The notes beneath the pieces are model-generated. The model was not told the DNA's origin, ran no database searches, and saw nothing but the letters and a program-made list of their open reading frames with translations. A stretch of DNA of 64,000 nt, taken from the NCBI RefSeq assembly GCF_900096945.1, contig NZ_FMKA01000004.1:1-64000 (forward strand), read 5' to 3'. Source of the stretch: Anaerobium acetethylicum (lineage in GTDB: Bacteria > Bacillota > Clostridia > Lachnospirales > Lachnospiraceae). Each line of letters opens with the position of its first letter. Positions within the stretch are counted from its first letter, which is position 1. The translations under genes and the position numbers were made by a program. Shown here piece after piece: positions 15,175-50,984 of the stretch.

Positions 15175-15232
15175 CTGTTGGACTTATTGTACCTGGTTTT
15201 TTTTCAGAATCATCAATGAATACTTGCTTTTT
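15133..15232. repeat. Hairpin block, copy 2
   Basis: Similar along about 100 bp to 5939-6036, including the stem, the loop and GTACCTGGTTTT. It reaches into the last codons of the surface-protein gene. A weaker match to the ATPase leader repeat lies at about 15020-15060. Confidence 0.6.
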
Positions 15233-18897: not shown

Positions 18898-19794
18898 CTA
18901 TTTAACCTTTCTTTTCGATGTGGATATAAAGGTATCATTAGAAAAAGATCCAACCCAGGATCCTTCATCAAGAAATGTCAATAGTACCTTTACCTTTTCA
19001 AAATCATTCGGGAATTCGATCATTTTATCTTTTACAGTTAAATCAACAAGTCCTGAATGCTTTTTTGCAATTCTTTTTATTTCCATTGCACTATATTTGT
19101 CTAAAACTCCAGAATCATTTATAAGTGCAACTTTCCTTCTAACCCAGCTATTAGCTTTAGCCATAACTTGTTCACGGCCATCGCCCAAATTAATCTTTTC
19201 CGTTAACAAGAAATTATTAATATCTTCATCCGTGGCTGTCCTATAATAGCCCGCTGAATCAAAAATCTGCCTTGCATAATAAAATGAATCAAAAATCAAA
19301 TTGGTTCCATTCAGAAAGCAATCTATTGAATAGGATACTGAAATACCCACACTTTTATTTTGTGTAAAAGTGCCATCATTAAACAACAGATTCAGTTTAC
19401 TTGTCGATATATACTGTTCTTTTCTAAAACGCTGAAAAGCCCCAATAAATTTTTCGCTTTTTTCTGTATTCTCACTATATCCAACGCAGATACCTTTAAT
19501 GTTTTCTATAGTTTCATCAGTGGGTTGAAAAGAGTCAATAGAAATAGGATTTCTAAAAGCGTCCTTAAGGACATCCGGCAACACAAAGTTTGCAATGCAT
19601 AAGGTTTCATCTTCTAATGGAGTATAGCTACCGTCAAAAGATACATTAGTTTTTCCAGCCAGTTCGTTTGTAGCTTCATCAAAGATGCCATTTATAAGAT
19701 TTTGCGTGTCTAAATTTGTTTCAAGTTTATAAACGACATCCGTTTTATCTTCTTTAACACTCAAAAAAATATCATTAGCTTTAAACCTACTCAC
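18898..19794 (-). CDS. KwaB-like (DUF4868) anti-phage protein candidate
   Basis: A 298-residue soluble protein. The middle region, with KLNLLFNDGTF, VSYSIDCFLNGTNLIFDSFY and ARQIFD (about 130-180), follows the pattern of DUF4868/KwaB, the cytosolic partner in the Kiwa phage-defence system (KwaB of E. coli is about 315 residues). The start is a GTG that overlaps the TGA of the small upstream gene (GTGA), so translation is probably coupled. A full-size KwaA membrane partner is absent. The family call comes from remembered sequence pattern and needs a profile search. Confidence 0.5.
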   Translation of the reverse strand: MSRFKANDIFLSVKEDKTDVVYKLETNLDTQNLINGIFDEATNELAGKTNVSFDGSYTPLEDETLCIANFVLPDVLKDAFRNPISIDSFQPTDETIENIKGICVGYSENTEKSEKFIGAFQRFRKEQYISTSKLNLLFNDGTFTQNKSVGISVSYSIDCFLNGTNLIFDSFYYARQIFDSAGYYRTATDEDINNFLLTEKINLGDGREQVMAKANSWVRRKVALINDSGVLDKYSAMEIKRIAKKHSGLVDLTVKDKMIEFPNDFEKVKVLLTFLDEGSWVGSFSNDTFISTSKRKVK

Positions 19795-20008: not shown

Positions 20009-20944
20009 TTAATCTTTTCCCAGCACTTTCTTTATTAGATGTTTAGCTTTTCTCAAAGTTCGACGCCACAACGGAGTATAATTTCCATACTTCCTTGCAA
20101 TATATGAAAAATCTTTATTCTCGAAATCTTTCCAGAACTGATTTCGCTCATCCGGAACTTTTTCTGGTTCAATTAGTGGATGTTGCATTGAGTCTTCGAT
20201 TCGAGTTTTATACCAAACTATGTCATTTTTTGCTTTTTCAAAATACAAACTTCCTTTTTCCGTATTAACCAATACAAGTGAAACACCTTTATTATCATCT
20301 AACCGAGGACAAGCTTTCTCTATTCCCCAATAATCAGCAATAGTTATATCGCCGGGATGATCAATAGACTTGTACGGACATTCGTAGCATACAGGTCGAA
20401 GAATATTGTGGCTATAAAATAAATAAGTCCATACTTGGCTGTTTATTTTTTTATTCTTACAAAAAATTGTTTCCACATGGTCTCGCCACCCGAAGTCCTT
20501 TTTGTTTCTAAAGTCAACATTAATTATAGTTTTACCCTTAGATATCCAGTCAAGATATGTTTTCCATACTTTCGGACTAGGAACCCCATGACAAACAATA
20601 TCTATACAAAGAAGATTATTATAATCTTTTTTAAGGAAACATCTAAATCCTGCAACTTGACACGATGTGCCTGAGAATAAAACGTGTCTTCCATCTTCTA
20701 AATCATTTTTTATTTGTTTATAACAATCTCCCAATCGACTCTGTATATATTTGGAGCCTCTCATCAGATCTCGGCCAGTTTTATTTTCTGTTCTAACGTG
20801 AATCGCATTATAATTTTCATCTAATACGCATCCATAAACTACTCCGCCGTCCAAAAAAAGATCAGAAATAGCTGTAAATATTCCTCCTGAGCGCGAAGTA
20901 GCTCGTATTCTTTCATCTTTATGTTTAACCGCATATACATTCAT
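20009..20944 (-). CDS. Coenzyme F420 hydrogenase/dehydrogenase beta-like protein
   Basis: A 311-residue protein of the FrhB C-terminal family often found beside polysaccharide pyruvyltransferases. Characteristic features are ATSRSGGIFTAISDLFLDGG (about 16-35), FSGTSCQVAGFRCFL, CIDIVCHGVPSP and ITIADYWGIEK. The usual N-terminal ferredoxin domain is missing; a free ferredoxin is encoded 1.3 kb downstream. It probably carries out a redox step on a sugar or its pyruvyl group, but substrate and cofactor are unknown. ATG 20944 overlaps the flippase stop (ATGA). Confidence 0.8.
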   Translation of the reverse strand: MNVYAVKHKDERIRATSRSGGIFTAISDLFLDGGVVYGCVLDENYNAIHVRTENKTGRDLMRGSKYIQSRLGDCYKQIKNDLEDGRHVLFSGTSCQVAGFRCFLKKDYNNLLCIDIVCHGVPSPKVWKTYLDWISKGKTIINVDFRNKKDFGWRDHVETIFCKNKKINSQVWTYLFYSHNILRPVCYECPYKSIDHPGDITIADYWGIEKACPRLDDNKGVSLVLVNTEKGSLYFEKAKNDIVWYKTRIEDSMQHPLIEPEKVPDERNQFWKDFENKDFSYIARKYGNYTPLWRRTLRKAKHLIKKVLGKD

Positions 20945-22434
20945 CGTTTCAAAATATATCTCCTTACTACTTGCCAACAATCCCTATTTACAAGAAAATT
21001 TAATCCCATTCCTATAGTACTAAATACAACAGTCAGAATAATTCCCCATACAGCGCATTGACCATAAGAAGTAATTTTAGGCGTATAAAATTTAGATAGC
21101 AAAACTACACTAAAGAAAAATAAAAGATTCACGCCAATTATAGAGATTGATCGCCAATATGATCTTTGCATTACTTTTTTATCAGCAATATATGTACACC
21201 AGACAACTTTTAGGGGAAGTGCGATAACAGTTGCCAGTGTAACTCCCACTATTCCAAACCTATGTACAAACAAGACTGATAAAATCAAATTTGTTAAAGC
21301 TTCTACAAGTGAAATGTAACCTGTTTGCATTGCATATCCTGCAATACCGGTTAATTGTCCTCCAACATAACGACTCCAAGATAATATCTGTATTAAGCAA
21401 AACATTAATGGAAGTGAACTATATATGTAGTTAACATCCGTAATGCCTCTCGTATATAAAGACACGAACGGAATCGTCAAGACATAGCATACACTCATTA
21501 AAATCGTCACTAATCCAATAAAAATAGAATTTAATGAATCATGTAACTTTTTATAAGTTTCAGTACCATTATGATATGAATACCCTATTAAATAACCAAT
21601 GCTTATAAAAACAGCAGACAGTAATGAGGAAATATTGGCAAATATCATATTATAAATTCCATATACTGAAGAAAGCTGTGTACTAACAAAAATTGATAGG
21701 ACAATCATATCGGTTGAAGAAAAAATAGTCCAACAAACTTCTGTCAATATATATGAATTTCTATCTTTTAATTTTAATGAATTAACTTTTCTTTTAGGAG
21801 CAATCCATCCATAATGCTTCTTAAAATATATTTCATAAGCAAAAACTTTTGTTATAGTTACAAAAAAGTGAACTACCTGAAGAATTACAATACTAATGCC
21901 AAGTGAAGCCATAATAATTTTTGTGGCATATCCTATGATTTTATCTGTAAGACTGATTGCATTATTAACATAGCCTTTCCCATCAACGCTTAAAATTATA
22001 GACGGTGTCTGTATAAAATAAAAAGAGACCACTCCAGACATTCCTTCAAGCATAACAAGTAAAAAAATTGTAAATCTATCTATATTTGTTTTTAATACAA
22101 AAGGAAGAGCAAACGACAATATTGTCACACCAATAGCATAACAAATCGTAAATTTCCTAAAATAACAATTGGCCAAATAAGTGATCTCTGATATTTCATC
22201 TTTATTTTCATCTCCAAATGGCTTGAATAGTGCATTTCTAGCTGCTTGTCCTATGCCAGCTTCCAATAATGCCATATAAGTAAAAATTTGCGTCAAAGTA
22301 CTCAAAAAGCCATTTGCATCAGAACCATAACTAGTAATAAAAATGCGCGGGACTATAAGACCAAGAATCAAAGTTATACATTGACCGCCGAATCCTGTAG
22401 CTACGTTTTTGATGATTCTATTATCTTTACTCAT
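20941..22434 (-). CDS. Polysaccharide flippase (Wzx-like, MATE fold)
   Basis: A 497-residue membrane protein with about 12-14 hydrophobic segments. The N-terminus NVATGFGGQCITLILGLIVP and the motif ALLEAGIGQAARNALF are typical of the polysaccharide-transport family that flips undecaprenyl-linked repeat units across the membrane. It belongs to locus 1 and overlaps the pyruvyltransferase gene by 8 bp. Confidence 0.85.
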   Translation of the reverse strand: MSKDNRIIKNVATGFGGQCITLILGLIVPRIFITSYGSDANGFLSTLTQIFTYMALLEAGIGQAARNALFKPFGDENKDEISEITYLANCYFRKFTICYAIGVTILSFALPFVLKTNIDRFTIFLLVMLEGMSGVVSFYFIQTPSIILSVDGKGYVNNAISLTDKIIGYATKIIMASLGISIVILQVVHFFVTITKVFAYEIYFKKHYGWIAPKRKVNSLKLKDRNSYILTEVCWTIFSSTDMIVLSIFVSTQLSSVYGIYNMIFANISSLLSAVFISIGYLIGYSYHNGTETYKKLHDSLNSIFIGLVTILMSVCYVLTIPFVSLYTRGITDVNYIYSSLPLMFCLIQILSWSRYVGGQLTGIAGYAMQTGYISLVEALTNLILSVLFVHRFGIVGVTLATVIALPLKVVWCTYIADKKVMQRSYWRSISIIGVNLLFFFSVVLLSKFYTPKITSYGQCAVWGIILTVVFSTIGMGLNFLVNRDCWQVVRRYILKR

Positions 22435-23542
22435 AATCTATACCTTCTAATGATGAAAGCAAAACAGCCTTTGAGTATGATGAATACTTTTCAAGGACTT
22501 CATTCACCTTTTGATAATCTATTTCAGAACAAGTTGGAATATTACTGTCAGTTATCTCTCTATCATGTAAGTCAAATATTTCTGCCAAAGTATTTAATCG
22601 ACTGTTTGTGCCATTTTTATTTAACTCATAATAAAATTGCTTTCCAAGCCTAATCGACAAAGCCATCCCATGAAAAGATGTTGTAACTACATATTTTGCG
22701 CTATTTAACGTTTCCATAAACTTTCTTGGGCCTATATCCATAAGTTTTTCACACCAATCTGGAATATTTTTTTCAGTTCCATATGAGTGACAATACTTTA
22801 CAGATAATCCTGTCTTTTCATGCAAACTCTTAGCAATATCTAAACTATGAATTGGGTCATTAACGAAAAATGCAAAAATATAATCTGAGCTTTTCTTTTT
22901 TAAACCAAGTTTTTCTTCCCATTCACATTTTGTTAACAAGAAAACAGGATCACAAACTACCTTTGCTCTGGCATAATTTGTCGCATTCAGCTTCTTTAAT
23001 ATTTCAACTCCATCATTTTCTCTAATCAATGGAATCTTAATAGTAGAAATTAATTCTGTCATCTCTTCTTTTGCGGGATATGTTAATATTGAATTATTGC
23101 CAAAAGAAGCTGCATATGAAAACCTATTTTCTGGATTTACAAACTTTAAAAAGTAGTTCAAATCATCTTGGACCATTGAAGCATTCCATACCTGGTCACT
23201 TCCAGTAATAAACAAATCATAATTTTTAGATGCTTCACTTATATTATTTGAACTATACGGTTGTGAACATACTAAATATTTTTGTTGGAATTTTTCAAAA
23301 GTCTTTTTTCTGCGTATCTTCAAACTAAGCTTGCTAATAGAATCACGTCCGAGAATCACTGATTTAATCATAGATTTCAATCTTAATGGTGAATAATAAT
23401 AGTTTTCTATACATTTTGATCTATAGTCTAATATTTCTGCTTCATTATTTATTGATAAAAATTGTTGTAAAGCAAAAGCTTGTAACATTGCACCAAAATT
23501 ATGTGCTCTATGAAACGTAATTATTCCAATCTTTTTTTCCAT
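22427..23542 (-). CDS. Polysaccharide pyruvyl transferase
   Basis: A 371-residue member of the PS_pyruv_trans family, which adds ketal pyruvate from phosphoenolpyruvate to sugar residues. The N-terminus ITFHRAHNFGAMLQAFALQQ, the central FITGSDQVWN and the C-terminal TTSFHGMALSIRLGKQFYYE are diagnostic. Pyruvylation would give the polymer a negative charge. The FrhB-like gene two places downstream is a usual neighbour of this family. Confidence 0.85.
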   Translation of the reverse strand: MEKKIGIITFHRAHNFGAMLQAFALQQFLSINNEAEILDYRSKCIENYYYSPLRLKSMIKSVILGRDSISKLSLKIRRKKTFEKFQQKYLVCSQPYSSNNISEASKNYDLFITGSDQVWNASMVQDDLNYFLKFVNPENRFSYAASFGNNSILTYPAKEEMTELISTIKIPLIRENDGVEILKKLNATNYARAKVVCDPVFLLTKCEWEEKLGLKKKSSDYIFAFFVNDPIHSLDIAKSLHEKTGLSVKYCHSYGTEKNIPDWCEKLMDIGPRKFMETLNSAKYVVTTSFHGMALSIRLGKQFYYELNKNGTNSRLNTLAEIFDLHDREITDSNIPTCSEIDYQKVNEVLEKYSSYSKAVLLSSLEGIDYE

Positions 23543-23604: not shown

Positions 23605-24195
23605 CTATTTCCAAAGTACTTCTTTCTTTATGATTTTTGCTGGTATACCGGCAACTAAACAATTCCCTGGAACATCTCTTGTTACTATTGCACCAGCTGC
23701 AATAACAGCGCCATCTCCTACATTTACACCTTTAAGAATTTTAGCTCCTTCTCCTATCCACACATGATTTCCAATACATACTTTTTCTGTCATGTGATAA
23801 TCATCTCTGATCATTTCGTGATTATCCGAATCTCTTATAATCACATTCTCTGCAATGTAAACATTATCGCCGATTGTAATTTCCTGATGACAGTCAATCA
23901 TACTTCCCTGATTCATATATCCACTGCCAATCGTTAATGAAGCACCATCTGCAACAAAAAGTTTACATCCAGCATAAATCAAAAAGTCATCGACTCTCAA
24001 ACTACCTTTACCAATTGAAAATGTAGAAACCGTTTTGTTAGTAAGTGTAAGTTTTCTATTCCATTGAAGTCCAAAAACTAACTTCTTGTTTATTTCAATA
24101 CTTGACTGTTTGTTTATGTATTTATTACAAGGGGAATATATTACTAATTTTCTTTTTAGAAAATGAGAACATATCATTTTTAACAAATTTATCAT
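23605..24195 (-). CDS. Left-handed beta-helix acyltransferase
   Basis: A 196-residue hexapeptide-repeat acetyltransferase (CatB/WbbJ type). Repeats such as [35 protein letters not shown] and [20 protein letters not shown] form the helix. The C-terminal [10 protein letters not shown] is standard. His in the SDNHEMI stretch is a candidate catalytic residue. It probably O- or N-acetylates a sugar of the locus 1 repeat unit. Confidence 0.85.
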
Positions 24196-24207: not shown

Positions 24208-25179
24208 TCAATTAGTGCAAGTCAACTTCTCTTTAATTTTCAGTAATTGCAAATAAGTAAGCGCACTCATTATTTTATTATTGCTTATCAATTTATGAAG
24301 CATAACATACCTTTTACCAAACAAACATGATTTTGCAGTGTCAGTATTACCGAACATACGAAGTAGGGATTGATAAGCTCTCATTAGTTTCTTTTTATTA
24401 GTAAAATTCACCTTGCTAAGATCATCAATAATATATTTCAGACAATATCTCGATAAGTTTTTTTGAATAAAAGTATCAAATAAATTTCGTTCTTTTAAAG
24501 TTTCAATAAGAATATTAAAAGATTCGCAAATTGCAAGCGGCTTTTTATCGATAGTAGTTGACAAGGAATTTTCTGCAATTCGATAATATATAAATGTTTC
24601 CTCGAAGATATCATTGCGTGGGAAATAACACTGTGCAAGACAGTTAAAATACATGTCCTCACCAGTACGCGCATTATTGAACTTTATATTATTATCTATC
24701 AAAAACTTCTTTCTGAAAAATCTTCCCCATGGAGCTGGAGATGTTCTAAGTAAATAATCATATTCATAATCAGAACTATAATAAGTATCAAATATCTTAT
24801 CACCATTAAAGTTTTTAAATTTTAGGAATAGAATATCCGTATTCGAATAAGTAAGTTTCTCTATTATTTTTTGAATACATCCCACATTAAACAGATCATC
24901 TGAATCAATAAAAGTTATATACTTGCCTTGTGACTTTTCTATTCCTAGATTTCTTGCATATCCCGCTCCTGCATTTTCTTGATGAAAAATTTTAATTCGC
25001 TTATTTTTTTTAGCATAGTCCAATAACAAATTCCAGGAAGTATCAGTCGATCCATCATCAACAAAAATAATTTCTATATCTATTCCAGAATCTATTTGTT
25101 CACAGCATTCAAAAAAATCAGATAAATAAAGTGATTTATTATATACCGGAATTACAATAGATATAAAAGGTTTATTCAT
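24208..25179 (-). CDS. Glycosyltransferase family 2
   Basis: A 323-residue GT-A enzyme. The N-terminus SIVIPVYNKSLYLSDFFECC and FVDDGSTDTSW are the nucleotide-binding motifs. GNARNLGIEKS-like AGYARNLGIEKSQGKYITFI and DSDDLF give the DxD metal site. It overlaps the UDP-galactopyranose mutase gene by 8 bp. With galactofuranose precursor made next door, it may be a galactofuranosyltransferase; that is inference. Confidence 0.85.
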   Translation of the reverse strand: MNKPFISIVIPVYNKSLYLSDFFECCEQIDSGIDIEIIFVDDGSTDTSWNLLLDYAKKNKRIKIFHQENAGAGYARNLGIEKSQGKYITFIDSDDLFNVGCIQKIIEKLTYSNTDILFLKFKNFNGDKIFDTYYSSDYEYDYLLRTSPAPWGRFFRKKFLIDNNIKFNNARTGEDMYFNCLAQCYFPRNDIFEETFIYYRIAENSLSTTIDKKPLAICESFNILIETLKERNLFDTFIQKNLSRYCLKYIIDDLSKVNFTNKKKLMRAYQSLLRMFGNTDTAKSCLFGKRYVMLHKLISNNKIMSALTYLQLLKIKEKLTCTN

Positions 25180-26287
25180 TGTCTTTCAATTCCTTTATCT
25201 TTGATAGAGCTTCAATAACAACCTTGTCCATATCATAATATTTGTATTGCCCAAGTCTGCCGCCAAAATGAACATTTCCTAAATGACTTGCTTCTTCCTT
25301 ATATTTAGCATATAAATCGTTATTCTTGTCATTGTTAACTGGATAGTATGGTTCATCCCCAGGCTTCCATGCAGTAGAATATTCTCTTGAAATAACAGTT
25401 TTAGGTGATGTGATATCAAACTCAAAGTGCTTATGTTCAATAATTCGAGTAAAAGGTACTTCAAATTCTGTATGGTTTACAACGGCATTGCCCTGATAAT
25501 TTGATCTATTTAAAATTTCTGTTTCAAAACGAACTGTACGATACTCAAGTGGGCCATATTTGAAATTAAAAAATTCATCAATTGGACCAGTATAAATAAT
25601 ACTATCTGCAATATTTTTAAATTCTTCTCTATTGTCAAAGAAATTAGTATTTAGTCTTACTTCAACTCCATCAAGCATTTTTTCAATTATACTTGTATAA
25701 CCACCAACAGGAATCCCCTGATAGCGATCGTTGAAGTAATTGTTATCAAAAATAAATCTAACAGGTAGTCTTTTAATAATAAATGCAGGCAGTTCATTGC
25801 AAGCTCTTCCCCACTGCTTTGCTGTATAACCTTTTATTAATTTTTCATATATAGTCGGACCTACTAAATTAATAGCCTGTTCTTCCAGATTTTTAGGTTC
25901 ATCAATATGATACGCTGTTTTTTCCGCCTCTATTTTTTTCAAGGCATCTTCAGGTGTAAAAACATCATTCCACAGTTTTGTAAATGTATTCATATTAAAT
26001 GGTAAGTTATATAATTCATTTTTATACCTAGCTACTGGCTGATTAATATAATTGTTAAATTCAGCAAAACTATTTACATAATCCCACACTACTTTATTTG
26101 AAGTATGGAAAATATGAGCACCGTAAACATGTACATTAATTCCTTCAATGTTTTCGGTAAAAATATTGCCAGCAACATGATTGCGTTTATCTACTACTAA
26201 ACACTTTTTACCAGCTTTGTTTAATTCGTATGCGCAAATAGCCCCGTATAAGCCAGCACCAACTATTAAAAAATCATATTTTTTCAT
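25172..26287 (-). CDS. glf: UDP-galactopyranose mutase
   Basis: A 371-residue flavoenzyme that interconverts UDP-galactopyranose and UDP-galactofuranose. The FAD motif VGAGLYGAICAYELNKAGKK is at the N-terminus. HVYGAHIFHTSN and the later VGGYTSIIEKML are conserved in Glf proteins. ATG 26287 is preferred because AAAGGA lies six bases before it. The polymer of locus 1 therefore probably contains galactofuranose. Confidence 0.9.
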   Translation of the reverse strand: MKKYDFLIVGAGLYGAICAYELNKAGKKCLVVDKRNHVAGNIFTENIEGINVHVYGAHIFHTSNKVVWDYVNSFAEFNNYINQPVARYKNELYNLPFNMNTFTKLWNDVFTPEDALKKIEAEKTAYHIDEPKNLEEQAINLVGPTIYEKLIKGYTAKQWGRACNELPAFIIKRLPVRFIFDNNYFNDRYQGIPVGGYTSIIEKMLDGVEVRLNTNFFDNREEFKNIADSIIYTGPIDEFFNFKYGPLEYRTVRFETEILNRSNYQGNAVVNHTEFEVPFTRIIEHKHFEFDITSPKTVISREYSTAWKPGDEPYYPVNNDKNNDLYAKYKEEASHLGNVHFGGRLGQYKYYDMDKVVIEALSKIKELKDNE

Positions 26288-26306
26288 ATGCATTCCTTTT
26301 CTTTCA

Positions 26307-27470
26307 CTATTTTTTTAAGCATTCATTCAACATTGTTACGTTGTTTTCATAGAAAACAGGGACGTCAAACTCTGTTTCAAAAAGTTGTCTATTAGATTTT
26401 CTTAATTTATCTAGTTGCTTGATATCTAGCTTAAATATATTCTCAACATTTCTAAAGAAATCTTCGTCATCTCTATAAACAAAAATTCCTTCATAAGCAT
26501 CTTTATCAAAATACTTGTTTCCACCAGTATGAGAAATCAGCGGTATTGTTCCCAAGGATAAGACTTCCAATAAGACTAAGTCAAAATAAGTCTCTCTATT
26601 AGGAAGTACAAATATATCGCTTGCATTTATCAAAGAATGAGGATCATTAGTCCAACCTACTTCGATCCAGTGCGGATGATTCAGCCCCTTAATCGGCTCC
26701 TCCTTGCCTGCCACTAAAATATAAGCATCCGGGTATTTTTCCAGCAATTTAATTCCAAATTCTTCAAGTTTATCATATCCTTTAATTTCATTATGTCTGC
26801 CAACATAACAAATAACCTTAGCATCAAGAGGAATATTAAATTTTGATCTTATCTCATCTCTACTAACTTTGGCAGTTCTTTTATTTGTACCAGTGAGCAA
26901 ATATCTAAATTTTTCTGAGTTTTCGCTTTTAAACTTTTCAAACCCGTTCCATGCATGTATATACGGCTCTTCTGCCTCCTCGCATGGAAAGACTATATAG
27001 TCGGCTAGGCCAAACGAACGTTTATCAGCCATTTCGGATAACTTAAAAACAGGCCAAAACAAGATTTGTTCCCATCTTTTCTTGCCATTATATGTTTCAA
27101 TAGAACCTAAAGTTGGGCAATGAGAAGTTAAAACAACAACTCCTTTGTATTTCTTCAGGCTTTTTCTGAATTTATAAACATCAGAAGTTCTATGAAAATG
27201 TATTAAAGCATATTCATTGCTTTCGATATCTTCGCTTCTATTTCCTATCACGACATGCTTGATTGTTCTAAATTCATTAATTATGCTTTCTTTAACACTA
27301 GAGCTAGAAGAAACTGCTACACTAGTGTCTTCAATTTCTCCTAAATGAGTTAAAAAATTTAATTGATTACTTCTCTTTATATCTTCTTGATATAATGTAT
27401 AGAGATATCCAGCTGGTCCACCAACAGGTTTTAGCAAGGATTTCTCCATGAAAATTAGGAATTTACTCAT
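26307..27470 (-). CDS. Glycosyltransferase family 4
   Basis: A 387-residue GT-B enzyme. The C-terminal donor domain includes VICYVGRHNEIKGYDKLEEF, ILVAGKEEP and the EX7E-like FVLPNRETYFDLVLLEVLSL. The first half is divergent, which sets acceptor choice. It is transcribed between the acyltransferase and glf genes of locus 1. Confidence 0.8.
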   Translation of the reverse strand: MSKFLIFMEKSLLKPVGGPAGYLYTLYQEDIKRSNQLNFLTHLGEIEDTSVAVSSSSSVKESIINEFRTIKHVVIGNRSEDIESNEYALIHFHRTSDVYKFRKSLKKYKGVVVLTSHCPTLGSIETYNGKKRWEQILFWPVFKLSEMADKRSFGLADYIVFPCEEAEEPYIHAWNGFEKFKSENSEKFRYLLTGTNKRTAKVSRDEIRSKFNIPLDAKVICYVGRHNEIKGYDKLEEFGIKLLEKYPDAYILVAGKEEPIKGLNHPHWIEVGWTNDPHSLINASDIFVLPNRETYFDLVLLEVLSLGTIPLISHTGGNKYFDKDAYEGIFVYRDDEDFFRNVENIFKLDIKQLDKLRKSNRQLFETEFDVPVFYENNVTMLNECLKK

Positions 27471-27479
27471 ATACCCTCC

Positions 27480-28458
27480 TCAACAAATAGTTCTAATAAT
27501 TCTTTTCACAGATATTTCATAAATATAATTAATAACAAAACTTACCACATAGCTAAGCACAAACGTTAGAGTGAACGCCATCAAAAGAGATTGCATACCA
27601 TATACAAGATTATTAAGGTAATAGAAGCAAAAGAACGTATGCGTTAACCACATAATTGTTATAGTATTACCAGGAAACAGTTGAACAATCTTTTCAGCCG
27701 TCTTACTCGATAATACAGAAAAAGCTAAAATTAAAATACCGACAATAAAAGCATCAAGCCTATATACTTGTCTTACAGTAAATGAACGTATTAAGAGCAT
27801 TACTACCACCAAAACCGGTGATAAAATCTTTGAATACTTTTGTTTTTTTACTCTATTAATTAAATCGACATCAGCTAAATGGATTCCTATACTCATTGGG
27901 TACTGATACACGCAGAAATTTTCTACCCCATTTATGAAAATATTAGAATCCGTTATTTTAGGAATAATTATTCCAACAACATAAATCAAACTTGTGATAA
28001 CAAAGAATTTTATTTTGCCTTGTTTGTAAATAAATTGGTAAGCTGGTGATGAAAGCAGCAGTAATACATATAATCCTACAAACCACCACTCTTTATTAAA
28101 ATTACTTTGCAAGCCTAGCAGTTCAAGAAACGAAAAATCTTCTAGTCTGTACCCCCCCCCCGATAAATCCGTAGGGCAATGTAATAATCATAATAAACCA
28201 GTAAAATGAATAGAACTGGACAGTCTTAACCAAAGAATACTTCCATGATATTTTGTCATTTAATATTTTCCTACCAAAGCCATACCCTGATATAATAATA
28301 AATATCGGCACACACAATCTGCAGCCTTCTGCCAACTTTTGAATACTTGTGCTTACAACAAAAGTATTCGAAATTCGATCAGGGAATGCAAAGCAATGAT
28401 GAAATACCATCAGCATTATCGCAAATACTTTCAAAAGCTTACTTTGGTATTTATCCAT
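27480..28458 (-). CDS. Acyltransferase family 3, out of frame at a ten-G tract
   Basis: An integral-membrane O-acyltransferase split by its own sequence. The first frame (from 28458) has the family start LLKVFAIMLMVFHHCF and ends shortly after GFIGGG at 28123. The second frame resumes immediately after the G tract and runs to 27480 with eight or so membrane segments. With nine or twelve Gs instead of ten, the protein would be continuous (about 325 residues), the normal family length. This is the classic design of a phase-variable contingency gene, here in the OFF state. A sequencing error in the homopolymer is the main alternative. Confidence 0.75.
28152..28161 (-). repeat. Homopolymer tract, ten G on the coding strand
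   Basis: Ten C on the plus strand, inside the acyltransferase gene, exactly where the reading frame is lost. No comparable tract lies in the neighbouring AT-rich genes. Confidence 0.9.
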
Positions 28459-30082
28459 TACCTAGAATCTCCTCCCACTTGTCTACTATTTTATCTATAT
28501 TAAAACGCCTTGAATCTTGATATGCATTTTCAGAGAAAGAAGTTAATTCCACCTCATTACTCATCAGTTCGTCTAATTTTCTTACAAATGTTTCTTTGTC
28601 CCCTTGCTCGATCAGGAAACCATCATTTCCATCGATAACAATCTCGCTAGGACCAGTAAAACAATCATATGAAATTATAGGTAAGCCAGCTTTTTGTCCT
28701 TCCAACAACACCATTGGAAAGCCCTCAAATCTAGAGGTCATTACCATTATTTTGGATTTGTTATAGTAGTTTTCAATGTTCTTTACAAACCCAGCAAATA
28801 CAACATTTTTAAGTTGTTGTTTGTTTACATAGCCTTTCAGTTCAGCTTCTTCTTCTCCACTCCCGCAAATAATAAGTTTCCAATCACTGTGATTTGCTTC
28901 TATTTCATTCCATATTTCAAGAAGTTCTAAGAAGTTTTTTTGGTAGGCCAATCTACCACTGGCTATAACAACATTTTCTCTCAAATCAAAGTTAACTTTT
29001 GCGCTATCTCCCACAGTAGGATTATATATGTAATCAATAGAATGCTTGATTTTTAAATTCTTCTTATATTCTTCAAGATCCGCCTTGGTTAATACAATTA
29101 TTTTATCAGCATATTTGGCTGCAAGAACACGTGCTCTATCTCTATTCTTAACACCATTATTAGAGCTAAAATTAAAATGTTCCCAGGCAATCATTTTCAC
29201 CTTGCAAAACAACTTTAATGGCAAGGAATATAAACACAATAGAACATCAATATCAATCAAAACATCCGGTTTCTCTTTCTTCAAGAATTTAAGAAGTCTT
29301 ATATACGGAAAAACTTTTCTTTTTATTTTTCCTTTTGCATTTTCCATATGCAAAGAATATAAGTTTATTTCCTTTTCCTTCTCAAAAGTAGCCTTCTCTC
29401 CATTTTCATAACTCAAAATACTTATATCGTATCCTCGACTTGCAAGTTCGTTTGCAATCAGAAGAGAAACTCTTTCTGTTCCACCGGTCCTTGTTATATT
29501 TCCAGAGAAAAAGCAAATCTTCATATTTAAGTCCTGAAACAAAGCTGCATTCAAATTTGAATGTGAATTTTTATTACTAATTTTCTTAGCGGGTACACCA
29601 GCTACCGTTATACCTTCCTCTAAAATGTCCTTTACTACAACACTCCCAGCACCAATACAAACATCATTGGCAATCTTTATATTTCCAATAATTTTAGCGC
29701 CGGATCCAATAAAAACATTATCTCCAAAAATCGGAGCAGCAGTTTCACCATTAGTGGCGCCAATGGTCACACCTTCTTGGATTCTACAGTTTTTACCTAC
29801 TCTTGCATTACCATTAACAACAATTGTTCCATAATGCGCTATACTCAATCCTGAGCCAAATACATTAATTGGTATAGAAAATCCTAATTTTATAGATAAG
29901 GATTCAAATCTTTTTTTTAAAAAGTAAATATACGGATAAAATATATATGTACATTTACAATTTCTATAGTATTCATACTTGCGATACAGCTTCTGCCATT
30001 TAGTTACAATCGTTTTTCTGTTTCCATTTGCAACATTATCAAGTATCAAATATTCGTCAAAATCATTTTTACTACTAATCAT
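28451..30082 (-). CDS. Fusion of a serine-acetyltransferase-like domain and a GT4 glycosyltransferase
   Basis: A protein of about 543 residues. The N-terminal region (about 60-170) is a hexapeptide-repeat acetyltransferase of the CysE/SAT kind: GSGLSIAHYGTIVVNG, GVTIGATNG, GDNVFIGSGAKIIG, VAGVPAKKIS. From about 185, MKICFFSGNITRTGGTERVS begins a complete GT4 enzyme, with SGRLAYQKNFLELLEIW and TSRFEGFPMVLLEGQKAGLP. Such genes are usually separate neighbours. The fusion keeps an internal ATG where the GT4 would start, so both a fused and a separate product are possible. It overlaps the Wzy gene by 8 bp. Confidence 0.8.
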   Translation of the reverse strand: MISSKNDFDEYLILDNVANGNRKTIVTKWQKLYRKYEYYRNCKCTYIFYPYIYFLKKRFESLSIKLGFSIPINVFGSGLSIAHYGTIVVNGNARVGKNCRIQEGVTIGATNGETAAPIFGDNVFIGSGAKIIGNIKIANDVCIGAGSVVVKDILEEGITVAGVPAKKISNKNSHSNLNAALFQDLNMKICFFSGNITRTGGTERVSLLIANELASRGYDISILSYENGEKATFEKEKEINLYSLHMENAKGKIKRKVFPYIRLLKFLKKEKPDVLIDIDVLLCLYSLPLKLFCKVKMIAWEHFNFSSNNGVKNRDRARVLAAKYADKIIVLTKADLEEYKKNLKIKHSIDYIYNPTVGDSAKVNFDLRENVVIASGRLAYQKNFLELLEIWNEIEANHSDWKLIICGSGEEEAELKGYVNKQQLKNVVFAGFVKNIENYYNKSKIMVMTSRFEGFPMVLLEGQKAGLPIISYDCFTGPSEIVIDGNDGFLIEQGDKETFVRKLDELMSNEVELTSFSENAYQDSRRFNIDKIVDKWEEILGNG

Positions 30083-31364
30083 ATATTTTAATTCCATTCC
30101 TTAATTTTTTTGATAAAGCAAATCCAACCATTATACCTATAACTATGTTTTGTGGCGAACTGTTGAATATTTGCTCTCCGGTTGATTCCACCAAGGCCTG
30201 GACGAATACTAATAACGAAGATAAAGCGATAAAAGAACAAGACTTGCCATTAACTGATACATCTGTCTTATAATTTCGATATAACGCTTTCATAATAGTT
30301 GCCAAAAGCACTACATAAATAATTGTTCCAAGTACTCCTGTCTCCCCCATAATTGCAGGCCAGAATGTATCCATACCGAAGAAAATATTTCCAGGCTTGA
30401 GTCCCCAAACCGTGTTTAATCCATAAGCGTAATACCATTCTGAATAATTAACTTGAGCATAATATGTTCCAAATTTACTAAATCCTACGCCTAAAGGGAA
30501 AAAGTCCTTTATAATTGATAACGAACCAACTAAAAATGCATATCTGGCGCTGCCACCTGAATCCGTAAAATACATCTGATAGGTTTCGCTTATTAACCCT
30601 CCAAAAAAGAATATAACAAAACCTACGCCAATGAATGGAATGATGATTTTTTTTGCATCAATTCTCTTTTTTTGTAGCACAAACGAATCAAATAATAAAA
30701 TTGTAGCAATTCCTAATACTACTTTGACTTTCATCGATAAGCATGCCAAACATGCATAAACAATAAATAAATATAGTGACCTCTTTTCCTTATTTGTCCT
30801 ATATTTTGAATAGTAAAGTATGCTTATAAACAACATGAACCATCCATATTGCCCAGCATGAATAAATAACCCCATTACAGACGGTAGTCCTTGTCTCGTA
30901 TAGTCATAGGCAAACGGAATTAATTTCGTCCATAATGAAGGAGCAATAAAATTGACGATACCAGTAACAGCTGTAATTTTTCCAGCAAACAAAAGGGCAT
31001 CTACAAAATGGTAATACGTCTTTTCCTTAATTGGATGAATTATAAGAGACATTATTAAAAGATAAATTTTTACCATCAAAATGCTTGCCATTAATAGTGA
31101 AGAAAATCTATAAGAACTGTGAATAAGGCAACTTACAACTCCTACCACCCAAAATAACGACAAAAGTATGAATATTTTGGTAGTTAACGAAGATATATTA
31201 CTACGTTTTGCTAAGTAGAATATTGCTCTAGCGACAAAAAACAAAATGAAAAGTTCGTCTATATGATCTAGAAATCCTAAATGTGTAATACTAATTAATG
31301 AGTCCTGATAAACTATAATAAATGTCAATATGTATATTAACAACTTATTTTTTGATATTTTCAT
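30075..31364 (-). CDS. O-antigen-ligase/Wzy-type polymerase
   Basis: A 429-residue membrane protein with about ten to twelve membrane segments and a large extracytoplasmic loop (about 270-340: GGSARYAFLVGSLSIIKDFF, then PLGVGFSKFGTYYA). This topology and the GGSAR...GVG motif fit Wzy polymerases and WaaL-like ligases. It probably polymerises the locus 1 repeat unit. It overlaps the adjacent GT4 gene by 20 bp. Confidence 0.75.
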   Translation of the reverse strand: MKISKNKLLIYILTFIIVYQDSLISITHLGFLDHIDELFILFFVARAIFYLAKRSNISSLTTKIFILLSLFWVVGVVSCLIHSSYRFSSLLMASILMVKIYLLIMSLIIHPIKEKTYYHFVDALLFAGKITAVTGIVNFIAPSLWTKLIPFAYDYTRQGLPSVMGLFIHAGQYGWFMLFISILYYSKYRTNKEKRSLYLFIVYACLACLSMKVKVVLGIATILLFDSFVLQKKRIDAKKIIIPFIGVGFVIFFFGGLISETYQMYFTDSGGSARYAFLVGSLSIIKDFFPLGVGFSKFGTYYAQVNYSEWYYAYGLNTVWGLKPGNIFFGMDTFWPAIMGETGVLGTIIYVVLLATIMKALYRNYKTDVSVNGKSCSFIALSSLLVFVQALVESTGEQIFNSSPQNIVIGIMVGFALSKKLRNGIKIYD

Positions 31365-32445
31365 TACTATAGTCCTCCATTAAATCTACATACTTTGAAA
31401 CCGCATTTTCTAAATTGAATACTTCAGATCTTTCTATAATTTCATCTTTTTCAAATCTAAATCTCCCAGATAAAAATCCAATAATGCTTTCTGATATTTC
31501 ATCTTCTTCAAAGGATGTCAAAATGCCATATTTTCCGTCCTCCAATATTTCTTTTGGGCCAGATTTGCAATTTGTACTTACCGGAACACAGCCACATGCC
31601 ATAGCCTCAATCATTACAGTAGGCAAACCTTCCCAAAGTGATGTCATCCAAAAGCAATCAGCATTGTAGAAATATTTATATGGATTCTGTTCAAATCCTT
31701 TAAATACTACACGATCTGTTATATTCAATTGGTCTGAAAGGTTATGCAATGCGTTCTCAAGTTCTCCTTGTCCTAAAATCAATAGATAAGCATCTTTTTT
31801 CTTTAAAACCTCTTTAAAAGTTTTTAGCATTAATTCATAATTCTTTTGCTTCGTCAATCTGCCAGCAGCTACAATAATTGGTAGTCCTTTATATTCATCT
31901 AAATTTAAAGGAACTGACATTTTTTCTTTTAGTTCTCTTGAAACAACTGGGTTATAGATTGTTACCGTCTTCTCATCTTTTACACCTATACTATCGATGT
32001 AATCTAGTCTTGCTTCGTTTGACACAACAATTGTTTTTTCAACTAGATAATCTAAATGTCGCAGAATAAAGAACTTTGCTTTTTTATGATCTATTTTTTC
32101 TGAACTAGTAGTATTGTGTATCACTATAAAAAGTCTACATTTTGCATTTGAAAAAAATTTTGCCAGAAGTGTAAAAAAGCTCATTCCAAGAGAAACCAAA
32201 AAAACTTCAGTATAGTTTCTCAACTGGCTTGCTAGGTTCTTAAAAAAGATATATTTACTTGTTCCAAGTTCAATAACGTTAATATCATGAGACAAACTAC
32301 TATTAAAATCACCATTATTCTCTTTAACCAAAAATGTAATCTTGTATCCTCTTTTGCTCAATTCGTTAGCAAGGGTTATTGTAATACGTTCCGCTCCGCC
32401 GCCTGTAAATCTATGCATAACGAAAGCAATATTTCTATTTTTCAT
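31345..32445 (-). CDS. Glycosyltransferase family 4
   Basis: A 366-residue GT4 enzyme. FVMHRFTGGGAERITITLAN is the N-terminal glycine loop; IVAAGRLTKQKNYELMLKTF and TSLWEGLPTVMIEAMACGCV are the donor-site motifs. The start is ATG 32445 behind AAGGTGG, not the longer upstream frame. It is one of three successive retaining transferases in locus 1. Confidence 0.85.
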   Translation of the reverse strand: MKNRNIAFVMHRFTGGGAERITITLANELSKRGYKITFLVKENNGDFNSSLSHDINVIELGTSKYIFFKNLASQLRNYTEVFLVSLGMSFFTLLAKFFSNAKCRLFIVIHNTTSSEKIDHKKAKFFILRHLDYLVEKTIVVSNEARLDYIDSIGVKDEKTVTIYNPVVSRELKEKMSVPLNLDEYKGLPIIVAAGRLTKQKNYELMLKTFKEVLKKKDAYLLILGQGELENALHNLSDQLNITDRVVFKGFEQNPYKYFYNADCFWMTSLWEGLPTVMIEAMACGCVPVSTNCKSGPKEILEDGKYGILTSFEEDEISESIIGFLSGRFRFEKDEIIERSEVFNLENAVSKYVDLMEDYSNENIKK

Positions 32446-33508
32446 TGCAACACCACCTTGCCTGGTACAAATCCAATAAACGTTTAAAATATAAAGAATC
32501 CGAAAAATTGTTATAACATATTGATTTCGAACCAACACTCAATTTTGTAAATTCATCTATATTAATAAGTTTTTTTATAGCATTCGTAAGCTGTTTTACA
32601 TCACCAGGATCTACTAAATAGCCATTATCTCCATCAATAACAGCTGAGGATATATCCCCAACATCCGTAGCAACTATAGGCATTCCATAGCTCATAGCTT
32701 CAAGAATAGCAATTGGCAATCCTTCATTATAGGAAGGAAGCACCAACATTTGGCACTCTCTCAGCAATTTCTGTTTCTTTTCACCATCAGTCCATCCAAC
32801 GAAATTAACAACATCATCTATCTTTAATTCTTCAAATTCATTTTTTAGGTTTTCTTCTTCTGCACCACTACCGGCAATAATTATCTTAAACTTATTATTT
32901 CCCAAATCATCTTTGAGTAACTTTGTAGCCTTTAGTAAATCCGAAACCCCTTTTCTTTTTATCAAAACACCTAAGAATAAAATATTAAGCGGCTCTGCCC
33001 ATTTAACGGTTTCTTCAGGAATATGTACTGTATTGTTAACTACAACTGTGTTAGTTGTAGGCTCTATCTCTTTAATAACTTTATTCCATTTTTCACCAAG
33101 CACTATAAAAGCACTTGCTTCCTTTAGTAAGGTTCTAATCTCTTTCTGTTTCTTCTGATTAGAAGAGTCATACCACTTTTTGAACTCTGATCCATGTAAA
33201 TGAATGATGTCAGGAATCCCATTATTCCTACACAATTTATGAATCAAAAACTTTCTAGTAAAACTACCCTTGTAAGACATATGAATATGAACTACATCTG
33301 GTTTATTTGTTTTTATTTCCGTCTTTATTTTTGAGTATGCCTTTTCAAAAAATATAATTTTTTTGAAATTGTTAGCCTCAATATAGGTAGGAATAAATTT
33401 CATTTCTACGCCATCTGCTACCCAATCATGCGAAAGCATTTGTGTTATTACGCTTGTAATTCCACCTTTAACAGATGAATCATTTCCCACCATTAATACT
33501 TTAACCAC
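32435..33508 (-). CDS. Glycosyltransferase family 4
   Basis: A 357-residue GT4 enzyme with VLMVGNDSSVKGGITSVITQ at the N-terminus, LFLGVLIKRKGVSDLLKATK in the donor domain and LPSYNEGLPIAILEAMSYGM as the EX7E motif. It overlaps the next GT4 gene by 11 bp, consistent with one operon. Confidence 0.85.
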   Translation of the reverse strand: MVKVLMVGNDSSVKGGITSVITQMLSHDWVADGVEMKFIPTYIEANNFKKIIFFEKAYSKIKTEIKTNKPDVVHIHMSYKGSFTRKFLIHKLCRNNGIPDIIHLHGSEFKKWYDSSNQKKQKEIRTLLKEASAFIVLGEKWNKVIKEIEPTTNTVVVNNTVHIPEETVKWAEPLNILFLGVLIKRKGVSDLLKATKLLKDDLGNNKFKIIIAGSGAEEENLKNEFEELKIDDVVNFVGWTDGEKKQKLLRECQMLVLPSYNEGLPIAILEAMSYGMPIVATDVGDISSAVIDGDNGYLVDPGDVKQLTNAIKKLINIDEFTKLSVGSKSICYNNFSDSLYFKRLLDLYQARWCCNEK

Positions 33509-34440: not shown

Positions 34441-35688
34441 TTAATCCCTCTTAAAAATGTCTCTCGTGCAAACTTTCTCGCTCACATCATCAAGACAAAC
34501 ATCATAACGATTAGCGATAATAGCCATTGACTGTTTCTTGAACGCTTCCAAATTATTAACGACCTTACTTCCAAAGAAAGTCTCACCGTCTTCGAGAGTT
34601 GGTTCGTAAATAACTACGGTTGCGCCTTTAGCTTTAATACGCTTCATTACACCTTGGATAGATGACTGACGGAAATTATCAGAATTACTCTTCATCGCGA
34701 GTCTATACACCCCAATAATACATTCCTTTTCATCCTCTTTTGAATAATCTCCGCAGTTGAAATAATCGTAATAACCAGCCATATTGAGTACCTGGTCCGC
34801 GATAAAGTCTTTTCTCGTTCTATTAGATTCAACAATTGCTGAGATCATGTTCTGAGGTACGTCTGCGAAATTAGCAAGTAACTGCTTTGTGTCCTTCGGT
34901 AAACAATATCCACCATAACCAAATGATGGGTTGTTATAATGAGTTCCAATGCGAGGATCAAGACACACACCATTAATAATTTCTTCTGTATTCAATCCCT
35001 TTGTTTCAGCGTAGGTGTCTAATTCGTTAAAGTAAGAAACTCGAAGAGCGAGGTACGTATTAGCAAATAACTTGACTGCCTCTGCCTCAGTAAATCCCAT
35101 GTGGAGAACATCGATATTTTCTTTCTCTGCTCCTTCCACAAGGAGTTTTGCAAACATCTCAGCTGCTTCCCTTGACTCTTCATCACAAGAAACGATGATT
35201 CGGGAAGGGTATAAATTATCGTAGAGTGCCTTACTCTCTCTTAAAAATTCTGGGCTGAAAATGATATTCTTCGTTCCATACTTCTCCCTCACTGAAACTG
35301 TGTAACCCACAGGAATTGTGCTCTTAACGACCATCATTGCTTCCGGATTTACTTTAAGCACAAGCTCAATAACAGCTTCCACAGCAGAACAATCAAAGAA
35401 GTTCTTATTGCTGTCATAGTTCGTAGGAGCTGCGATAATTACGAAGTCTGCATCCTTATATGCAGTCTCACCATCTGTTGTGGCTTTCAGCTTCAGATCT
35501 TTCTCAGCTAAATACTTTTCAATATATTCATCCTGAATAGGACTGATCTTTTTATTTATCTTTTCTACTTTTTCAGGGATTATATCCACTGCTGTCACTT
35601 CATGATGCTGAGATAATAAAACGGCCAGTGACAGACCAACATATCCAGTTCCTGCGACTGCAATTTTTAAATCTTCAAATTTTCTCAT
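34441..35688 (-). CDS. ugd: UDP-glucose/nucleotide-sugar 6-dehydrogenase
   Basis: A 415-residue enzyme oxidising a UDP-hexose to the uronic acid with two NAD. The N-terminal Rossmann motif is [19 protein letters not shown] (about 9-27). The catalytic Cys is about C262 in [23 protein letters not shown] and [15 protein letters not shown] are also family markers. It implies a uronic acid in the locus 1 polymer. It is the first gene of the AT-rich distal block. Confidence 0.9.
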
Positions 35689-36499: not shown

Positions 36500-37909
36500 T
36501 TACCTCGACCCTTTTCTCCCAATTACCACCATCACCGTCTGCAACAATATCTTCAAATCCAACCCAATATTCCATTCCTCAATATACCTCGCATCCAGCG
36601 CCACAACCTCTTCAAAATCCGTAATATCGCTCCTGCCACTCACCTGCCACATCCCCGTAAGCCCCGGCCTCGTCGCCAGCCTCTTCCTGTGATGCAGTTC
36701 ATACTTCTCATATTCATCCACGGTTGGAGGCCTTGTTCCTACAAGACTCATATCCCCCTTCAGCACATTGATGAACTGTGGCAGCTCGTCAATCGAATAA
36801 TCCCTCAATATCTTCCCAAACGGAAAGATCCTCGGATCATCCTTCATCTTGAACATGAACCCCGACATCTCATTCTGAGCCATGAGCTCTTTCTTCCGTT
36901 CCTCCGCATCCATATACATGGACCTGTACTTATACAGGTAGAACGTCCTTCCATTCTTCCCGACCCTCTTCTGCTTGAAGAACACCGGCCCGGGACTCTG
37001 CAGCCAGATACCAGGCGCCACGAACACCGTGGCCACCAGCACGATCAACGTCCCTGCCAGGCCTCCGCAGACATCAATCGCCCGCTTCAGGAACAACTGC
37101 CTCAGGCTTGCCATCTTGAAGCTGCTGGTAAACACCGTATACCCCGCAATCTTCTCGACCACCTCATTGCTCGTCAGATCCGTGTAAGGCATGAAGGCGA
37201 TATGGCTTGTGATCCCCATCTCGCTGCAGGCATCCAGCAGATCTACCGGGATGTCCATGCTCCTTGGCAGATTGATGAACACCTCGTCGATGATATGGGT
37301 GCCGATATATTCCACCAGGTCCTCGCCGCAGGCCAGTACCGGGAATCCGGCACGGCGGCTGCCACGCAGGTCCCTGTCAATGACCGCGATCCCCTTGATC
37401 ATGTAGCCGTTGTACTGGTAGGACTGGAACTTCTTAGCCGTGTCGTCTACCAGGTCCGAAGACACCACCAGGATGATGTTCCTGTCGCATCTGGTCTTCA
37501 CCTTCCGCAGGACCAGCATCTTCCAGATCACCCTCGCATCGAAGATATAGAGCACCGATACGATCCAGTATGAAATGAGCATGATCCTTGAAAAATAAGT
37601 CGTTTCCTTCATGACGAACAGGTAGATGAATATCAGGCTCATCACCGTCGTCGTATGCATGACCACAGCCTTGAACTCCTGCCAGTGTCCTCTCTTCAGG
37701 ATGTTCTTGTAGCTTTCAAAGAAAAAGCCGATGCACAGATCAGCCATCAGTATAAACATGGCCAGCTTGGCATACTTGATATACTCATACGGAAGGCGCA
37801 GGCCGTTCCTGAGCATGTAAGCCATGACAAATGTAATCTGCAGTCCGGCCGCATCAATGAGAATAAAGTCCCAATGCTTTCCCCAGCCGGATTTGATATT
37901 TTCGTACAT
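36500..37909 (-). CDS. Initiating polyprenyl sugar-phosphate transferase (WbaP/CpsE type)
   Basis: A 469-residue membrane enzyme that loads the first sugar phosphate on undecaprenyl phosphate. Four or five membrane segments and a Rossmann-like region occupy the first 270 residues. The catalytic bac_transf domain follows: GPVFFKQKRVGKNGRTFYLY, YKYRSMYMDAEERK, DELPQFINVLKGDMSLVGTR and RPGLTGMWQVSGRSD. It is the last clearly GC-rich gene of locus 1 before the AT-rich block. Confidence 0.9.
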   Translation of the reverse strand: MYENIKSGWGKHWDFILIDAAGLQITFVMAYMLRNGLRLPYEYIKYAKLAMFILMADLCIGFFFESYKNILKRGHWQEFKAVVMHTTTVMSLIFIYLFVMKETTYFSRIMLISYWIVSVLYIFDARVIWKMLVLRKVKTRCDRNIILVVSSDLVDDTAKKFQSYQYNGYMIKGIAVIDRDLRGSRRAGFPVLACGEDLVEYIGTHIIDEVFINLPRSMDIPVDLLDACSEMGITSHIAFMPYTDLTSNEVVEKIAGYTVFTSSFKMASLRQLFLKRAIDVCGGLAGTLIVLVATVFVAPGIWLQSPGPVFFKQKRVGKNGRTFYLYKYRSMYMDAEERKKELMAQNEMSGFMFKMKDDPRIFPFGKILRDYSIDELPQFINVLKGDMSLVGTRPPTVDEYEKYELHHRKRLATRPGLTGMWQVSGRSDITDFEEVVALDARYIEEWNIGLDLKILLQTVMVVIGRKGSR

Positions 37910-42078: not shown

Positions 42079-42735
42079 CTATTCTACATCCGGCCCGGAT
42101 ATCTTGTCTGCATAAACGAACAGTCTGTCCTGTTTTGTGCCGACCAGCATCTCGAAGGGATAACAGGTATACAGGACGAGCTGCTCCTTATCCTGGGTCA
42201 GGCTGTAGGCCGACTCGTCGGATTTGTGGAGGACCTTCGTTTCCGTCACTTTGTAGACGTATACGCCGTAGTTCGTGGTGAAGGTGATCTCATCGCCGGC
42301 CCCGATATACTGGAGCGGGGCGAAATAGGTGGTGTTGTGTGCCGAAAGCAAGATGGTCTTTCCAAATCCAGGCATATAGCTGCCGTTGTACTGGCCTGCG
42401 CCGACCTTCAGGATTCCCCTGTCGTCGCCGAAGTACACCGGTGCATCGAGCCCGATCTTCCCGCAGGTAAGCTGTCCATAATGAGTAGAATATTCAGGTA
42501 TCACCACTTCACTTATAGGAACTGTAGCCCTTTCCGTCAATTCCTTTTCCGGTTCGAAGATGGAATTGGTGTTGGGTGAAAAATCCGGCGCCTCGGCGGC
42601 AACCACCATGCTGCCAAGCCCCATTGCAAGCTCTGCGATGGGCCTTACCGCGATATAAATAACCAGATAGCCTGCTAACGTAAAAATTAATGGCATATAG
42701 AAATATGCCATTAATCGTTTCATTCTGTCATTCAT
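42079..42735 (-). CDS. Sortase (class D/E-like)
   Basis: A 218-residue sortase with an N-terminal membrane anchor (about 12-32). The catalytic triad is visible: H133 in LLSAHNTTYF, C191 in LVLYTCYPFE and R204 in KQDRLFVYA. Sortases cleave a C-terminal sorting motif and join the protein to the cell wall or another acceptor. The start codon directly follows the stop of the sorted surface protein, its obvious substrate. The TLTC-like TCYPF context places it near classes D and E. Confidence 0.85.
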   Translation of the reverse strand: MNDRMKRLMAYFYMPLIFTLAGYLVIYIAVRPIAELAMGLGSMVVAAEAPDFSPNTNSIFEPEKELTERATVPISEVVIPEYSTHYGQLTCGKIGLDAPVYFGDDRGILKVGAGQYNGSYMPGFGKTILLSAHNTTYFAPLQYIGAGDEITFTTNYGVYVYKVTETKVLHKSDESAYSLTQDKEQLVLYTCYPFEMLVGTKQDRLFVYADKISGPDVE

Positions 42736-50410: not shown

Positions 50411-50533
50411 TGCGTGTCCCCCTGTTCCTGGCGTGCTCCGTTCGGTTGTCTGTTCTGTTGCCTGTTCTGCTTGGATTGTTTATATTGTGTATATTATTTA
50501 TATTGTTTATGTCTTCATGCTGTTTATGCTGTT

Positions 50534-50843: not shown

Positions 50844-50848
50844 GTCCT

Positions 50849-50980: not shown

Positions 50981-50984
50981 GTCC

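Follow-up and report, generated by a model that had tools for sequence, protein, structure and literature searches.

Introduction

Campylobacter carries many poly-G loci. In Campylobacter jejuni, Cj1295 contains a homopolymeric tract, and its product modifies a surface glycan (PMC3068675); it acts on the flagellin glycan of a Gram-negative bacterium, unlike the gene studied here. In Haemophilus influenzae, oafA encodes an acyltransferase family 3 (AT3) O-acetyltransferase of a surface glycan, and its expression is phase-variable (PMC9558356, PMC11868660). Our gene also encodes an AT3 protein, whereas the oafA product acts on Gram-negative lipooligosaccharide.

Two pneumococcal genes are closer in kind. 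The capsule acetyltransferase gene wciZ of Streptococcus pneumoniae has been found out of frame at a TA repeat (PMC5028725), and wciG contains homopolymeric regions prone to slipped-strand mispairing (PMC11934437). WciG is a stand-alone AT3 enzyme that acts on galactofuranose (PMC9558356, PMC11934437). As in wciG and wciZ, a putative acetyltransferase gene in a probable Gram-positive capsule cluster is here put out of frame at a repeat; in contrast, the repeat is a ten-G tract, which the passages describing the pneumococcal genes do not name, and the host belongs to another bacterial class.

In the gut commensal Bifidobacterium breve, the sortase pilus loci bbr_0113 and bbr_1889 contain intragenic tracts annotated as G11 and G10, respectively; each tract splits one gene into two ORFs that are joined by slippage, and deep sequencing revealed mixtures of tract lengths (PMC9187656). 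An intragenic G-tract also splits the gene of the present study, in another Gram-positive host. However, the split gene encodes a putative glycan enzyme instead of a pilus protein, and the length mixtures of B. breve are experimental, whereas our locus is known from its sequence. From the published descriptions, the B. breve pilus tract stands closest among proven cases in Gram-positive gut commensals, and wciG, wciZ and oafA are the closest in kind of gene.

A survey of 99 prokaryotic genomes stressed poly-A and poly-T tracts; poly-G was mostly under-represented there, and runs of 7–8 G were over-represented in nine genomes only (PMC2831843). A 2025 review of phase variation cites Clostridioides for invertible promoters (PMC11868660). 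In this study, we analyzed a stretch of 64,000 nucleotides from Anaerobium acetethylicum (the window), in which a ten-G tract interrupts an acyltransferase gene. The type of mechanism is already known; what appears to be new is the host and the breadth of such tracts in Clostridia.

Results and discussion

A ten-G tract separates two open halves of one gene

As assembled, the frame runs from the ATG at 28458 through 99 codons and the ten G to the ORF end at 28123, giving a product of 111 aa. Past the tract, 223 codons are open in a different frame down to the stop at 27480, and reading of the frames revealed no further stop within the 322 codons flanking the tract. Changes in the length of the ten-G run open or close the reading frame of the gene. 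The sequence-only reading had placed a gene at 27480–28458 that is readable on both sides of a ten-G run in different frames. These coordinates are correct, the run is exactly ten C on the forward strand, and the two open halves are colinear with seven relatives. It had also derived a protein of 325 residues from either nine or twelve G; the figure fits one of these lengths, and the longer tract gives one extra glycine.

The first 8 bases of the acyltransferase gene, which has a good ribosome-binding site, also form the end of the gene upstream, and the next gene starts 10 bases past the acyltransferase stop. The GC content of the C-terminal half is 30%. No run of at least nine A or T and no other long homopolymer occurs in the window. 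The tract lies 28 kb inside a contig of 238,805 bases, a position that does not fit the poly-G produced at contig ends by two-colour sequencing.

Table 1. Coordinates of the split acyltransferase gene and of the genes around it, in window positions
Feature	Position	Strand	Basis
Priming sugar transferase (Bac_transf and CoA_binding_3)	36500..37909	-	Pfam
Nucleotide-sugar dehydrogenase (UDP-glucose/GDP-mannose dehydrogenase family)	34441..35688	-	TIGR03026 above cut-off
Two GT group 1 glycosyltransferase ORFs (31345-32538, 32435-33508)	31345..33508	-	Pfam
Hydrophobic protein, putative Wzy-like polymerase by look and place	30075..31364	-	no family match
Hexapeptide acetyltransferase and GT4-type glycosyltransferase, single 548-aa ORF, upstream	28451..30097	-	Pfam; NCBIfam matches below cut-offs
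Shine-Dalgarno-like GGGAGGAG preceding ATG 28458	28469..28476	-	sequence read
AT3 acyltransferase, N-terminal half, 99 codons	28162..28458	-	Pfam PF01757 on 28123-28458; profile and alignment
Ten-G homopolymer (putative switch)	28152..28161	- (ten C on + strand)	sequence read
Out-of-frame tail and stop reached with ten G	28123..28151	-	ORF read
Acyltransferase, C-terminal half, 223 codons and stop, other frame	27480..28151	-	frames, profile, homologues; no own Pfam match
GT group 1 glycosyltransferase, downstream	26307..27470	-	Pfam; sequence
UDP-galactopyranose mutase (GLF)	25172..26293	-	Pfam 1.1e-84
GT2 glycosyltransferase	24208..25179	-	Pfam
Hexapeptide acetyltransferase	23605..24195	-	Pfam
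Polysaccharide pyruvyl transferase	22427..23542	-	Pfam

The split gene encodes a probably divergent AT3 protein

The N-terminal half matched Acyl_transf_3 (PF01757) with 39.4 bits against a cut-off of 31; the C-terminal half alone had no match in Pfam, and neither half matched NCBIfam. A profile built from seven homologues scored 64 bits on the N-terminal half and 110 bits on the C-terminal half. These seven AT3 relatives (L007, L009–L014) all match PF01757 across nearly their whole length. The acyltransferase identity proposed earlier is thus borne out, as the first half passes PF01757 and the second fits a profile of PF01757-positive homologues. PF01757 matched the host genome once at 1e-5, with an E-value of 3.8e-8 that is compatible with the N-terminal half. 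When the halves were aligned with the seven relatives as separate fragments, both met in one loop, with the tract between them. GGG or poly-glycine was absent from all seven homologue sequences, indicating that the enzyme does not need the tract.

Of the 396 further genomes in the family, 6 had relatives of the C-terminal half, with 22–29% identity. A distant relative with 30% identity in Clostridium lacusfryxellense was the sole match in genome_contigs, and the plasmid search with this half gave one distant match, from Cetobacterium; no relative was found in viral_contigs or phages. The searched collections, which may leave out records very near the window, contained no near copy of the gene.

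The R-X10-H motif of AT3 proteins lies in the first membrane helix (PMC9833829). By eye, the N-terminal half has K10-X10-H21 in its first membrane helix as a possible counterpart of this motif, with R replaced by K. The cytoplasmic RXXR of the third helix, which is highly conserved though not absolute, was not evident by eye; K-X-X-Q stands at the likely place, where the homologues in the alignment also vary. With K in place of R and RXXR not evident, the chemistry of the acyltransferase may differ. These features suggest that the enzyme belongs to a divergent AT3 branch.

The gene lies in a putative polysaccharide cluster

The GC content was 33% over 20–36 kb, compared with 43% for the whole window. 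Judging from its gene content (Table 1), this low-GC group looks like a capsule or exopolysaccharide cluster. The ORFs at 30075–31364 and 20941–22434 are hydrophobic or long, have no family match and stand at the places expected of a polymerase and a flippase. Surface-sugar acylation is accordingly a function that we infer from the AT3 family and the polysaccharide neighbours. As WciG acetylates galactofuranose and a gene for the precursor-making mutase is close by, second downstream of the acyltransferase gene, galactofuranose would be a natural first guess for the acceptor sugar.

In the 548-aa ORF at 28451–30097, a hexapeptide domain resembling serine acetyltransferase is continuous with a GT4-type glycosyltransferase, which may represent either a real fusion or a lost stop. 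Elsewhere in the window, 15213–16973 encodes an InlB-type-repeat protein with a weak sortase-B sorting signal, and a sortase gene is present at 42079–42735. The protein encoded at 18898–19794 weakly resembles KwaB, a component of the Kiwa defence system, with a score under the Pfam cut-off. Tandem arrays occupy 50506–50994, where a 17-bp unit in 7.6 copies is followed by a 137-bp unit repeated twice at 98%.

Long G-runs exceed chance in the host genome

Across the 4.6-Mb genome, we counted 38 runs of exactly seven G, three of eight, one of nine and two of ten. Geometric decay predicts approximately 0.02 runs of at least ten G, whereas two were observed (Poisson P(≥2) ~2e-4). The count of eight-G runs within the window alone is not out of the ordinary, being reached by 29 of 100 shuffles, a procedure that preserves the tract's own GG pairs. 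A chance G-run was rejected on the excess in the genome-wide run-length counts.

Among the three runs of at least nine G in the genome, only the tract in the acyltransferase gene splits a gene with a family match. The second ten-G run (L141:3001-3010, contig C23) lies between ftsH, identified by eye, and an alpha-amylase gene; it reads as C on the sense strand, is near a TATAAT and is covered by an 80-aa antisense ORF. The nine-G run lies just 5' of the point where a cupin-like ORF probably starts, or within a longer form of that ORF.

Ten-G tracts in relatives are associated with glycan genes

Ten-G tracts were present in 148 of 397 Lachnospiraceae genomes and in 64 of 245 genomes of a class sample; the window's genome is in both sets, and the class sample includes nine genomes of the family with such a tract. 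Switching by such tracts had been called less often described in Clostridia. A search of the open-licence literature agreed, finding no papers that describe phase variation through poly-G tracts in Lachnospiraceae or Clostridia, a weak negative given this scope; the counts above, however, indicate that the tracts themselves are not rare.

Among the matches listed, the family survey comprised 97 loci from 43 genomes (L015–L044, L075–L141). One repeat was removed from 101 tracts, and eight of the remaining 100 were dropped at less than 150 bases from an end, leaving 92; this set omits the tract in the acyltransferase gene and includes the other ten-G run of its genome. Seven places approximately 1.3 kb or less from a contig start were left out of the survey (G259:C136, G098:C104, G341:C204 and G195:C10, C26, C34 and C39). 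The 92 tracts among the matches listed comprised 72 of ten G, 16 of eleven, three of twelve and one of thirteen.

We defined an associated ORF as one that traverses the tract, ends at it or begins at most 150 bases 3' of it. Among the matches listed, such an ORF was present on the G strand at 70 of 92 tracts and on the C strand at 25 of 92. When only downstream ORFs of at least 100 codons were counted for the same 92 tracts among the matches listed, the numbers were 60 and 19, respectively; all survey counts depend on simple ORF rules. Of the 23 internal tracts on the G strand among the matches listed, 9 were in frame and 14 shifted, close to the two thirds that a floating length would leave shifted; part of these 23 calls is background, since the same rule scores 8 of 92 as internal on the C strand. 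Outside the family, the bias was weaker (26 tracts, L174–L202; G strand 15/26, C strand 8/26).

The 70 G-strand products were then compared with Pfam. Among the best 25 of 56 families, GT2 had five matches, AT3 four, Hexapep four, MBOAT one and Wzz one; many families had a single match, among them housekeeping ones and the non-surface HSP90, pterin-binding and MurB_C. As a control, 30 ORFs at an arbitrary 12-mer, chosen by a looser rule that allowed either strand, gave no AT3, GT2 or Hexapep match and one match each to GT group 1 and Bac_transf; three of these 30 ORFs encode tRNA synthetases, in whose genes the 12-mer recurs, and the 12-mer therefore does not sample genes neutrally. GT2, AT3 and Hexapep together accounted for 13 of 70 products and 0 of 30 controls (Fisher P 0.009), with family matches counted as separate proteins and one Hexapep match possibly being the GlgC-like L087. 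From 190 PF01757 matches in 60 genomes, and assuming 2,800 genes per genome, approximately 0.08 AT3 matches would be expected in 70 genes, whereas four were observed (Poisson P ~1.5e-6). These survey tests overstate independence, as some genomes (e.g., G272 and G145) give several tracts.

Three of the four AT3 genes are shifted at the tract. L018, from a single-contig genome, has 98 codons before the tract and 221 after it, with profile matches over 5–94 and 119–323; that is, it is split at nearly the same place as the gene in the window. L042 has 183 and 174 codons, the second half being without a Pfam match, and L127 has 248 and 81 codons. In L106, the tract is near the start and in frame. 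The MBOAT acyltransferase gene L120 is also shifted. Searched at the DNA level, the L018 gene was found in none of 7 other genomes of its genus and the L042 gene in none of 2. In genome G169, L040 (12 G) and L110 (10 G) hold two copies of one short repeat that share 95.9% identity over 146 bases; the pair is a mere hint of length change, as the homology starts approximately 20 bases before the tract.

A proposed slipped-strand switch and its alternatives

We consider it likely that the gene encodes an AT3 acyltransferase, probably an O-acetyltransferase of the cluster, and that its ten-G tract is a slipped-strand ON/OFF contingency locus assembled at an OFF length. Four observations make this the best account: the ten-G tract, the intact halves on its two sides, the surrounding cluster, and G-tracts that recur at AT3 and other glycan genes. 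The sequence-only reading of the gene as phase-variable is partly supported, the survey making it the best explanation; switching itself, its rate, the acetyl group and the sugar acceptor are what we infer from the DNA. The stand-alone AT3 enzyme would acylate, and probably O-acetylate, the repeating unit of the polymer (capsule or exopolysaccharide) made by the cluster, and the ten-G run would sit in a loop between early membrane helices. Slipped-strand mispairing in replication would alter the tract length; one in three length classes would fuse the halves (ON), and the remaining classes would stop translation soon past the tract (OFF), the assembly representing an OFF length. OFF cells would make the polymer without the modification, and, as a guess, the OFF state may also reduce expression of the downstream genes by polarity.

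Alternatively, the tract is real and its length was miscounted, i.e., the sequenced strain has an unbroken frame, which we regard as unlikely. The genus has no other genome, and the window is known from one draft of 105 contigs with an estimated contamination of 4.5%. Draft assemblies tend to err in homopolymer length. The lengths of G-runs are difficult to read: at one B. breve locus, the reference gives G11, and cultures contained approximately 60% G12 and 37% G11 (PMC9187656). However, the excess of long G-runs over chance stands whatever the exact run length, and a single-contig genome carries an AT3 gene split in the same way (L018). A miscount would alter which state is read; the slippery tract would still be there.

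A fixed pseudogene caused by an ordinary frameshift appears quite improbable. The gene is out of frame in the assembly and is the sole PF01757 match in its genome, so the enzyme may simply be lost; however, the 223 downstream codons contain no further stop or frameshift, an ordinary indel does not need a ten-G run, and AT3 genes are over-represented among the genes linked to tracts in the family. The most doubtful reading is that RNA polymerase or the ribosome undergoes programmed slippage at the G-run, which would give some full-length enzyme in every cell: programmed transcriptional realignment takes place at homopolymers of at least eight bases, A and T runs being the best-known case (PMC3711429), but the relatives encode the protein in an unbroken frame without a tract, and the mixed frame relation among the matches listed (9 in frame, 14 shifted) gives no single fixed offset.

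Putative promoter-spacer tracts and flanking bases

Some tracts are adjacent to promoter-like sequences. A -10 box (at least 5/6) stood directly after 13 of the 92 tracts among the matches listed, compared with a mean of 1.07 and a maximum of 5 in 500 control draws taken 40–120 bases away. When a -35 box (at least 5/6) at 14–20 bases was also demanded, five of these 92 tracts remained, compared with a control mean of 0.06 and a maximum of 1. In L036, L111, L112, L032 and L085, a promoter-like site precedes a long ORF, and the tract fills the spacer between its -35 and -10 boxes; judging from this arrangement, transcriptional phase variation is likely at such poly-G spacers. Transcriptional phase variation through promoter-spacer tracts is known for porA of Neisseria and fim of Bordetella. 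By eye, poly-G also lies in a putative promoter spacer in L190 and L182.

The bases flanking the tracts were biased as well. TA directly followed 39 of the 92 tracts among the matches listed, compared with 59 of 847 runs of 4–6 G in the same loci (P 2.6e-21), and C immediately preceded 44 of the 92. In other families of the class, TA followed 10 of 26 tracts. We considered TA as a mere mark of the -10 box and rejected it, as internal tracts have TA equally often (10 of 23 among the matches listed); i.e., promoters alone do not account for TA.

We lean, with modest confidence, towards the view that poly-G contingency loci form a broad set in Clostridia, for the most part unrecorded, with the acyltransferase gene as one member. 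These loci would be of two kinds, in surface-glycan coding sequences and in promoter spacers, tending to have C before and TA after the tract, and simple repeats would, as in Campylobacter, control how surface polymers switch at the strain level. The polymers concerned would be antigens and phage receptors. If the switch in the acyltransferase gene is real, one colony of this bacterium would be a mix of cells with and without the modified surface polymer, which would bear on phage attack, on immune recognition and on how differences between strains are interpreted in metagenomes. Judging from the survey, several broken glycan genes of Clostridia may be switchable, and the survey yields sites that can be checked in existing long reads.

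Four genomes of the family (G368, G147, G195 and G369) had very many G10 matches, at 63 to 121 positions; these genomes may be multi-locus switchers, or the matches may be artefacts.
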